From positions 11,199,470 to 11,263,469 of the forward strand of contig NC_092012.1 in the NCBI RefSeq assembly GCF_042242105.1: DNA of 64,000 nt, given 5' to 3'. The stretch comes from Pempheris klunzingeri (taxonomy: Eukaryota; Chordata; Actinopteri; Acropomatiformes; Pempheridae). The notes beneath the pieces were generated by a model. That model did no database searches. It saw only the letters and a list, made by a program, of their open reading frames with translations, and was not told where the DNA came from. Of the stretch, positions 45,465-52,107 are shown piece after piece; position 1 is the stretch's first letter; each line of letters begins with the position of its first letter. Made by a program: the position numbers and the translations under genes.

Positions 45465-47610
45465 CTAGAAAGTGAAGGTGTCGGTAAATCTGATGATTTT
45501 GGGTTTATATGTCTTTATGACTGACGGATCTCCATAGTTGATTGTTTTGTATTTTGGTCTCTGTTTTGGACTGTCTCTCTCAGGTTGAATCTTAGATGAC
45601 GTCACAGCAGAGTCTTCAAACGCAGCTCCACTGGTGGCGTCTGCAGGAAGACTGAAACTTTGTGGCACACGAGTATCTTTTATGTCCTCGGGTGTCACCT
45701 CTCCTTTTGCCTCTGCATCTTTTTCTCGTGGTCTACCCTCTGTTGGTATATTTTTTGTTATCATATGATAGGTTTGTACCTTCATGTTGTCAGGAGGATA
45801 TAAATTAATGTCTTGAGAAGTTCCCACTGTCACCAAACCAGTGTTAAAAGCTGCCGCAGAAGTATGAGTGTGTGCTGGTAGCGCTGACGCCAAATGAGTC
45901 ACAGTTTCTGCTGTTGATTGAGGGGAAGAATCTGTCTGATCTTCAGCATCTTCTTGATAATCAAACCTGTAAACATGTGGGATGACATACTTGGGCAACC
46001 TTCTTTCAACGGTCACAGCTTTGGTTGGATTCGTATCTTCGTCTACTCCGTTCAGCACATGGTCGCCGCATGTATATTTAGAAGATCCCTCAGTTTTGGG
46101 CTTTAAAGCGGCCCTCACCTCTGCACTGGATGGTTCACCTGTGCTTGATTCCCTGTAAGAGCATTGTAGAACTCTATGAGGAACCTCTGTTGTCAAGTTG
46201 GGTGTTTTTTTCAAGTGTGAGCTTTCTTGTGGCTCCTTTGAATATTTTTGCGGAGAAGAACTGACACACATGGACCACACAGGAGAGCAGGTCGTGATGG
46301 TCGCCACATGCCACTCCACTTGGGCTTCTATCTGTGGAAAAAGCCTATAAGGCTCTGGGAGCAGCCTCTCAGTGACAGATGTTAAACAGAGCAGCTCTAC
46401 GTGTCCATATTTTAAATTATTGGTGATACAGGTGTCTTCTATTGTAGTCTGAACCACACCATGCTTCCCTTGACCCTTAAAATCCTTCTCATAACCTTGA
46501 TCTTTCATATGGTTTGATGAACAGTCACCCTCAGCCTTTTGATCTGATTGCTGATCCCCCATCTGTCCTGTTTGCTCTGGTTTCACATTATTTGTTTCTT
46601 CCAGGTTTGAGTTAGCTTTTGTTAAAACATCCACTGCCTGCTCCTGTCTTTGTTCTTGCCCACTTGTCGCTTGATTTCCTTCCACTTGCTGTCCTACACA
46701 TTTAGTTTTCATCCGCTTGTGTTGGTTTTGTTTGTGAACAGGTTGATCCGCAGTCTGCTGTCTTTCATGACAAGCTACCATCTGTTTTATATTACTCGTC
46801 ACCTTGACTCCTCCAGGAGGCCTTTCATGTGAACATTTCAAGTCACTTCCCTTACATACAGTGGCCATGGTCTCAAACCTCTCCATCAAACTAGACAGGA
46901 GGATGCCTTTGCCGATTAGTCTTGGTTTGATTGGCTGTTTCTTCAGCAGGTTCTCTCCTTTTTCCTTTCGCTCAGCCATGGCAAACTTGGCCACGATATC
47001 TTTCACGCTGCAGCCCCTCTTCAGTCCTTCTCTTGTAGTCCGGTCCTTCTTGTGCATGTTGTTCTCACCGTCTTGGCAGTTGTTTAGCTTACCTGCCACT
47101 CCTCTGCTGCAGGACAGAGCCCCCACCTCCCTTTGGTGGGTGACGGGAGGTTTGGGTGCGGACCTTATGAATTTGGATTGGAGGAGATGGAATGTGGTCA
47201 GGCGCCGCGGTATTAAGCGTCCTGCTTTTTGGTCTTCTCCATTCCTGCTTGGCAATTTGTCTTTTTGTGGACCAGCCTTTCCCTGAGTTATTTTATGCTC
47301 TCTCTTCTTTATTGAAGCTTCAATTCTCTGACCAGGCCCATCTGTGTTTCTTGTGTGTCTTTCAGCCACAATGGCCGACCCTGGCTTCTCTGGTTTTCTT
47401 ATTCTGGCGGTCCTCCTGGGCAGCTCCTGTGTTAGGTAATGCAGGAGACTCTCCAGAATCCCTCGGAGAACAGGGCGGCAGTTGCGGTCTCTAACCAACT
47501 TCCTCAACGTACCGGCATCGGGGCTGATACTGGTTTTCAGACAATCTGGTCTATGGAGAATAGAGGACATGCGAGACTTAATCCCTGTAGCCGTCTGCAG
47601 CTGAGTATAC
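45465..47610 (-). CDS. adprhl1: Probable alternative last exon of ADPRHL1 (long C-terminal extension, ~714 residues)
   Basis: A 2.1-kb open reading frame with no intron. On the minus strand it is preceded by a pyrimidine-rich acceptor (TATCCAACTATTCAG), exon base 47610. Its first base completes codon AA+G when joined to a GT donor at 49286-49285 inside the ADPRHL1 exon that normally ends the protein. The joined form would be 1071 residues. The first part (RMSSILHRPDCLKTSISPDA and LRKLVRDRNCRPVLRGILES) looks conserved in style. The middle is hydrophilic, rich in K, Q, T and E, and probably disordered. The C-terminus (DPSVIKTYKPKIIRFTDTFTF, preceded by KTINYG) looks like a short conserved module. 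I recognise no catalytic domain. I recall that mammalian ADPRHL1 has a long isoform with a large last exon; homology of this exon to it is inferred. Alternatively it is a separate single-exon gene starting at the ATG at 47660. Confidence 0.7.
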
Positions 47611-49282: not shown

Positions 49283-52107
49283 TTACTTGTCTATGCACTT
49301 CTCTGCAGATGCTGCTTTGTAAAGTGCTTCTCCCAGCTCCTCCAGGCGCTCTCTTTTGTCCAGATCCTGGTGCAGGCCTGGCGGGACCTGGCTCAGGCCA
49401 TGCATGAGGCCGTAGAGACAGCCTGCGATCAGGCCTGTGGCTTCACTCTCACCTAAATAAGAAGGGTAAGAGTATTTTCACAGAGGTGGCACTGAGCAGG
49501 CTGAATGTCTCCTCTGTCTGTGTTTTAATATGTGACTGAGAGTGCTGAGGTCCTCACCGCCGTGGAACATGGCTCGTTTGCACAGTTCAGCCCAGTCACT
49601 CCCTGCAGCGAGAAGGGCATCATAGGCTATCATGGGGGCGTCGTGGCCTCTTCGGCCTGCACGGCCCTCTGAGCTCCAGCGCTTATACATCTGCATGGAC
49701 AAGGACAGAGTGACTGCAGCATCCTGTTCCTGTTAGAGGTTTTCTTCATGTCTGTATTTACTGTTTGGGTGACGGAGAGGCAGGACTTACCTTGTCTGTC
49801 TCCTCAGGATCGTAGCGATCAGGGAATGAAGGCTTGCTCTGTCCATCCTCTATCCCTCTCTCTTCCAGGTAAAACTGCCACTTGGCTTCAAAGTAGAACC
49901 AGTTTTCCTGATACTCTGCATAGGAATGAACACTTCCACACATTACTGCTGGGATGCTCGCTGTGTATAATGCTTAACTCAGAAAATTAATACATAAATA
50001 GACAAATGCATATTGATTTTATGTATGTATGTAGTTAGTTAGTTAGTTAGTTAGTTAGACAACAGCACAGTCTAACCTGACATGTGTCGTATGGTCTTCC
50101 TGCAGTACTCCTCCGCCCGAGAGATGACCGTCATGAGCTCGCGGCCCCAAGTCACAAGAGGCTTCCCCTGGATCGCATAGGATGCAAACAGTGCCGTTGT
50201 CAAGGAACCCAGGAAGCCTGAAGCCAAGAGTGACACCACAAGTCACTTCTACATGATTAGAGATGCTTCATGGTTTATCAGCAGCATAATAACCAGCCTG
50301 TAGTTGCCAAATTTGTCTGGATTGGTTAGAAACTGCCAACACTGTCACCTGTGGGGTGGTTGTGGGTCATTCTGCCAATCTCAATGCTGACCTCCACCAG
50401 GCTGTCTTGTCTGTCGGGTTGCCAGTATCTCATACCCACACACATGGCCTTAGCAGCTGCCCCAAACCCAGATCCTGGACACAGACAAATATGCACACTT
50501 TCATAGTGCTGTTTTAATGGACCGTAATAATAATAATAAAAAAATAAACAATATCTAAAAAAATCTCCACCGGCCTTTTTCATTGAAGGGTGTATGCCAG
50601 GCGAGCAGGAAGTTGTGAGGTTTGAGGTGAACACAGCCCTCCACTGTGGCAGGATCAGGGGCTCTGCCCTGGAGAGACACCATGGCTTCAACATAGAGAC
50701 GCACCAGCTCCCGGTACAGGTCCTCCAGACACCAGTAATCTGGACACACACACACACACACACACAAAGTGACTGGGAGTCATTCATGTTTGGCATGCAA
50801 GGCGAGATGAGTGGTGCTGCGGTGGGCTAAGTTTAGCCCCAGCCTGCTGCACCGCAGATTAAGACCAGCATGCCTGCGGGGCGAGTGGAGTTACTTCCAC
50901 ACACCATGAGGCCAACTGGGATCCTCAAGCGGAGCCCACAGCCACCCTGCTCGAATTTGTTTATGTGTGTTACTGTAAGTGTGAGGGAGAGAGAGAGCCT
51001 ATGATGACAAAGAGGCATCATCTCTGAACTTTATCCTGGGCTTTGATGAAAGACGGGAACTTTCACGCTCTTGACATAGTCGTGGTTCACATTCTGTTAC
51101 AGGGGATGAGGAAGGGTAGACCCGAAGTTCTCAGTCAAATCCATCAATGGATCCAGCAATTCTTGCCTTTCTGGTTTACATTCTTTATTCTTTGCTTCAG
51201 ATATTTACTAATATTTGAGCTACCAGAAATCCCTCTGGCTCCTCTGGTGTATGTGTGCGGTTGTGTGTGTGTGTGTGCAGGCATTGTGGCTAAATAGGGC
51301 TTCCTAATCTTAAGAGATGTCATCACCATTTCACAGGGCCGCTGTCATTTGCTTTGAACCGCATCTGCAGCCAAACATGATACCGGCAGATTATGGAGAG
51401 GTCTGACCCGCTATTGTTCAGCAAAGGGAGCAGAGGATCAGCTTTTCCAAAGTAGTCTATTTTGGACTTTTCTGTCCCGGCAACTTCTGGCCACCCTGTG
51501 GGGGCTCGAAATGACATCTGAGTGACGGCATTCGTAATAAGGTTACTACTGAGATTTTCTCTTTGATGGGCGGTTGTGAGGATAGATTATGGTATTATGG
51601 TATGTCAGCAGGTTTTATCATTCAGAGATGGTCTGCCAACAAGTGATTAGCAGCTTCCATTGACTGTGCAGAAGAAGCTATTCTGGTCCTTCTAAATGTA
51701 AAAAGATCAAAAGCCTGGCTGGACAGGTCTGATGGTGTGTCTGTATATTATTGAATAGAAAGAAAGAAGTGTTTTCATCCATTATTAAACATTTTATAAG
51801 AAGAGAAAGAAGCTAATTCTTCTCTCTAAGCTGCTTCTTAGATAATCATAAATCCTCTTTCTGATCCCTCTTGACATCAACCCAAAAGTGTACCTGTTAT
51901 AAGTGCTTCTGCTGTGGTCATGTGCATCAGCGTTGCATCACTCAGGGGCCAGTTATCAGGGTCTAGTTTCTGGGCCCCCAGTCCCCCCAGAGAGGCCAGT
52001 TCCTCTTGGATCTTCTTGCCTGACGTGCAGCTTTCCCAACAGCCCTTTCTGTAGCCCAAGGCATCACCAACAGCGCCCAGAACCATGGCTGCCTTGAATT
52101 TCTCCAT
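49283..52107 (-). CDS. adprhl1: ADPRHL1, ADP-ribosylhydrolase-like pseudoenzyme, 7 exons (short form)
   Basis: Exons in transcript order: 51894-52107, 50575-50739, 50349-50474, 50077-50217, 49791-49915, 49558-49690, 49283-49452. Total 357 residues (human short form 354). It starts [20 protein letters not shown] and matches ADPRHL1 along its length: [87 protein letters not shown]. The metal-binding acidic residues of true ADP-ribosyl-arginine hydrolases are altered: SDDT reads SDAT, and the late DSDST-type motif reads GGESEATG. It is therefore probably inactive, as known for the family. In vertebrates the gene is heart-enriched and linked to cardiac actin assembly. Exon 2 to 3 is only in frame with a GC donor at 50574-50573. 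The stop TAA at 49285-49283 overlaps a GT donor. Confidence 0.95.
50033..50057 (+). repeat. (GTTA)n microsatellite
   Basis: About six GTTA units in the ADPRHL1 intron between exons 4 and 5. Confidence 0.85.
50744..50766 (+). repeat. (AC)n next to ADPRHL1 exon 2 acceptor
   Basis: About 11 AC units on plus, (UG)n in the pre-mRNA, ending three bases before the AG of exon 2 (exon base 50739). Confidence 0.9.

Follow-up and report, generated by a model that had tools for sequence, protein, structure and literature searches.

Fish adprhl1 probably carries a long optional last exon behind a weak donor that overlaps its stop codon

The 64,000-nucleotide stretch of DNA analysed here (the window) contains on its minus strand a gene that we firmly identify as adprhl1, from its domain, its lost catalytic residues, its di-arginine loop and its neighbours. 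Exons 1-7 (Table 1), joined and translated by script, give an open product of 357 residues with one terminal stop. This short product matches the Pfam family ADP_ribosyl_GH (PF03747, E 3.7e-57), and its residues 1-354 match ARH1 structures (3hfw, E 1.2e-102; 6g28, E 1.3e-102, the latter labelled human in excerpts of PMC9738213). Two ARH1 motifs named in the same excerpts, SDDT and DSDS, read SDAT at residue 56 and ESEA at residue 303. The catalytic and metal-binding motifs of ARH1 are thus lost in adprhl1, which should therefore be a pseudoenzyme. The di-arginine loop, residues 263-273, differs by one residue from frog SSEGRGGRRGH and keeps both arginines. According to excerpts of PMC7390403, the di-arginine motif is unique to Adprhl1 and the loop is absolutely conserved from frog to man, a pattern from which the fish gene departs by that one residue.

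The neighbourhood points the same way. By eye we recognised a gene that we take to be lamp1; Pfam assigned no family to two frames at its presumed position. RabGAP-TBC and Cullin_binding stretches found with Pfam flank adprhl1, and a cullin with a Nedd8 domain lies further out. These neighbours fit the published place of adprhl1 between grtp1 and dcun1d2, in the order cul4a-lamp1-grtp1-adprhl1-dcun1d2 given in excerpts of PMC11026864, from which the gene names are taken.

Several other features of the window are worth recording. The cullin gene with the Nedd8 domain, probably cul4a, occupies 20581-25854 on the plus strand, and a Cullin_binding (DCN1-like) gene lies near 56400-56030 on the minus strand, so that a cullin gene and a cullin-binding gene share one block. 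Beyond the cullin gene, Pfam detects a CNH-domain coding stretch at 12107-12940 on the minus strand, which by eye we take to be TGFBRAP1-like. About four perfect copies of a telomere-type hexamer (ACCCTA on the plus strand) sit at 53088-53112, upstream of adprhl1.

Table 1. Coordinates of adprhl1 exons and associated features in the window
Feature	Position	Strand	Remarks
Exon 1, coding part	51894..52107	-	ATG at 52107; joined translation open, Pfam ADP_ribosyl_GH match
Exon 2	50575..50739	-	Donor AAG/GCCGGT at 50569-50574, apparent GC-AG intron
Exon 3	50349..50474	-	
Exon 4	50077..50217	-	
Exon 5	49791..49915	-	
Exon 6	49558..49690	-	Contains di-arginine loop
Exon 7	49283..49452	-	Short-form TAA 49285-49283; end is 49287 when spliced on
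Candidate donor GTAATC across stop codon, weak	49281..49286	-	Score -0.62
ATTAAA in intron 7, putative short-form poly(A) signal	48503..48508	-	Not above chance
Exon 8 coding part, acceptor 47610	45465..47610	-	714 codons + TAG; open frame, codon periodicity
Exon 8 coding part, better-scoring acceptor 47550	45465..47550	-	694 codons + TAG, same phase
Predicted helical stretch	47400..47516	-	Exon-8 residues 32-70, single-sequence AlphaFold2

The boundary after exon 2 departs from the usual form. Seven of the 30 exon ends that we tried keep the frame open; GT follows none of the seven, and GC follows only the end listed in Table 1. A GT four bases past this end would break the frame. The exon 2 donor is either that of a rare GC-AG intron with poor consensus or the product of a sequence difference.

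At the end of exon 7 the short form reads GAC AAG TAA (49291-49283), and a GT at 49286/49285 spans the stop, as seen by direct reading and by script. The overlap of stop codon and donor claimed in an earlier sequence-only reading of this DNA is therefore present, with GTAATC at 49286 and TAA at 49285-49283. Since a stop codon after any G-ending codon creates such a GT, a GT across the stop carries little weight by itself. We scored splice sites with approximate donor and acceptor matrices, in a model that has no branch point. With a score of -0.62, the donor CAA/GTAATC, which has no G at -1 or +5, ranks in the top 13.6% of GTs on the minus strand of the window; the GT donors of five other introns score 0.57 to 7.9. 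Two of the six GTs in 49452-49270 match the phase required, and 49286 is the better of the two. We rejected splicing at a GT at 49298, which would yield 1067 residues, because that GT scores worse (-3.12). The weakness of the donor at 49286 is compatible with an optional exon.

Downstream of exon 7, the same strand carries a frame that is coding, far beyond chance. The stop-to-stop frame at 45465-47714 comprises 749 codons, the longest listed in the window (the next has 278), and from 47609 onward 714 codons run in frame to a TAG at 45467-45465. For comparison, we simulated 64-kb sequences with a first-order Markov model, 100 for each of two compositions; the longest runs were 339 codons with the composition of exon 8 and 236 with that of the window. 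The codon positions of exon 8 differ in base use (chi2 54.3, p 6.4e-10), a bias absent from intron 7 (p 0.56) and from the tested downstream flank (p 0.98). It reaches p<0.05 individually in five of six exon-8 blocks of about 120 codons each, the exception being codons 361-480 (p 0.11). Frame length and codon periodicity together therefore mark exon 8 as coding. The 714-codon frame described in the sequence-only reading holds up, exceeding the simulated maximum and being codon-periodic, and the block DPSVIKTYKPKIIRFTDTFTF that it placed at the C-terminus of the extension is there on direct reading.

Exon 8 could in principle have arisen as an open frame by chance, or be an exon that has decayed and gone out of use in this lineage. 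Its splice sites are weak, and its 714 residues return nothing above the cut-off against Pfam and no meaningful match against solved structures. We nevertheless consider this account very improbable, because 714 stop-free, periodic codons suggest selection that is ongoing or was lost only recently.

The junction between exons 7 and 8 preserves the frame. An AG precedes exon base 47610, AA+G encodes Lys in phase, and the resulting long product has 1071 residues and a single terminal stop. The phase predicted earlier is thus borne out, with Lys restored and the protein going from 357 to 1071 residues, roughly triple its length. With this acceptor, YTQLQTATGIKSRMSSILHR would stand directly after exon 7. 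Scored with the same matrix, however, 47610 (0.30, within the top 13.5% of AGs) ranks third among the 18 AGs in 47714-47450, seven of which are in phase. The best of the 18 is the in-phase AG at 47550 (TCTATTCTCCATAG/ACC; score 3.72), where AA+A again encodes Lys, 694 codons are added and the product, of 1051 residues, is open. The long product would have a mass of 119.7 kDa (1071 residues) or 117.4 kDa (1051 residues). Of the splice sites proposed in the sequence-only reading, then, 49286 and 47610 are both present and in phase, but their scores are weak and a stronger in-phase acceptor lies at 47550.

A variant compatible with our main reading takes 47550 as the acceptor, leaving a product of 1051 residues and making the 60 bases 47610-47551 intronic; we give it even odds. 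In its favour are the higher score (3.72 against 0.30), a pyrimidine-rich tract, the same phase and the Lys kept through AA+A. The 20 disputed codons also score low for exon 8, at -0.04 per codon against an exon-8 block mean of 0.26. With intron blocks averaging -0.43 they are intermediate, on a codon-usage score for which the exon-8 and intron blocks also served as training set. Weighing on the other side, the acceptor scores come from an approximate matrix that leaves out the branch point, and the disputed codons fall within the range of both exon-8 blocks (lowest -0.08) and intron blocks (highest 0.38).

The tail encoded by exon 8 is basic (pI 9.27), and disorder-associated residues make up 66% of it, against 53.5% of exons 1-7. 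Single-sequence AlphaFold2 modelling of the 714 residues gave a mean pLDDT of 36.9; 665 of these residues scored below 50, and 31 scored 70-90. Such low values, from a model built without an alignment, fit disorder, and the tail is probably mostly disordered. It is predicted to include one helical stretch of fair confidence at exon-8 residues 32-70 (ten-residue-block pLDDT 65-83 over residues 31-70), which is retained whether the acceptor is 47610 or 47550. A sestrin-family Pfam match for the 714 residues was dismissed at E 1.4, under its cut-off. One scan of viral contigs and one of prokaryote contigs yielded two and six pattern matches, respectively, and no confirmed relatives, as expected for a vertebrate gene.

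Long last exons of ADPRHL1 have been reported before. Excerpts of Smith et al. 2020 (PMC7390403) describe predicted frog and mouse adprhl1 transcripts in which exons 1-7 are followed by a long exon 8 at the 3' end, the exon being present, with low confidence, in one of five mouse transcripts. Two regions of frog exon 8 were probed there, of which one shows conservation with mammals and the other diverges from them; exon-8 probes showed little expression in the forming frog heart, and 100-kDa species are mentioned in tadpole gut. The chicken gene is given eight exons, 1,934 amino acids and 'two variable spliceosomes' in excerpts of PMC8427608. In stage-42 frog hearts, RT-PCR over the coding sequence gave single products (excerpts of PMC4990356). 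The frog probe data and these single products argue against strong cardiac use of exon 8. The long mammalian isoform mentioned in the sequence-only reading is consistent with the excerpted reports (PMC7390403). The proposal made there, that the fish exon corresponds to the long terminal exon of ADPRHL1 in other vertebrates, is well supported: the gene is firmly identified, the exon agrees in number and position with the published exon 8, and its frame is coding. The long-last-exon arrangement is already on record for frog, mouse and chicken, and is essentially ordinary rather than new. A switch between exons 7 and 8 is reported in none of the literature matches listed, as excerpted.

These reports also bear on whether the frame at 45465-47660 instead constitutes a gene in its own right, or has a transcription start of its own within intron 7. 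The frame is open upstream to 47714 with an ATG at 47660, and its codon periodicity requires no tie to exon 7. We nonetheless judge a separate origin very unlikely: exon 8 lies on the same strand as exon 7, is the next exon and matches it in phase, the frog, mouse and chicken reports assign the exon to ADPRHL1 (excerpts of PMC7390403 and PMC8427608), and the codon score of the in-frame stretch 47711-47613 (-0.39 per codon) resembles that of intron.

We conclude, with a probability of about 85%, that a fish-like adprhl1 has the long frame as its exon 8, the counterpart of the known 3' exon, which would be optional by virtue of the weak, stop-overlapping donor. If exon 7 is left unspliced, the mRNA would read into intron 7 and stop at the TAA, yielding a 40-kDa pseudoenzyme. 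If the weak donor is used, exon 7 would join exon 8, and about 700 basic residues, starting with a short helical module, would be added to the protein. We infer both the use of this junction and the nature of the choice, which likely lies between splicing through the weak donor and an mRNA ending in intron 7; a composite terminal exon of this kind is the most economical account. The donor would then control a switch between 357 and 1071 residues, and the tail would most likely serve in binding or anchoring in muscle cells.

Candidate signals for 3' end formation were counted on both sides of exon 8. Intron 7 has one A[A/T]TAAA, an ATTAAA that lies 775 bases beyond the stop, at 48508, against a simulated mean of 2.28; the best 20-mer downstream of it is 70% G/T, against a preset threshold of 80%. 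The 1165 bases after exon 8 contain four A[A/T]TAAA, against a simulated mean of 1.75.

A more ambitious proposal, which we regard as doubtful, is that the donor switch is regulated by tissue or stage. It would convert the 40-kDa form into one of 117-120 kDa, whose basic, largely disordered tail, helical at its start, would anchor the pseudoenzyme domain to muscle structures. Were this true, knockout phenotypes credited to the short protein would partly reflect the long one. In people, left anterior fascicular block has been associated with a missense variant of ADPRHL1 (excerpts of PMC6805929), and gene editing in medaka leads to small ventricles and atrioventricular block (excerpts of PMC12044080). 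Either ADPRHL1 form may be responsible for these cardiac phenotypes. The present analysis adds a fish gene model for the long form, which is predicted but hardly studied in the excerpted literature.

The fish gene resembles ADPRHL1 of Xenopus laevis, mouse and chicken in being the same gene with one long optional terminal exon after exon 7. It differs from the chicken gene, compared by length and gene position, in that its long product has 1071 or 1051 residues rather than 1,934. Exons 1-7 belong to the same sequence family as ARH1/ADPRH (PDB 3hfw, 6g28, 6iux); unlike ARH1, whose chains have 357-379 residues and no long tail, adprhl1 is without the catalytic and metal-binding motifs. Composite terminal exons with intronic polyadenylation depend on competition between a weak donor and 3' end formation, and the adprhl1 gene, on the reading proposed here, would work likewise.
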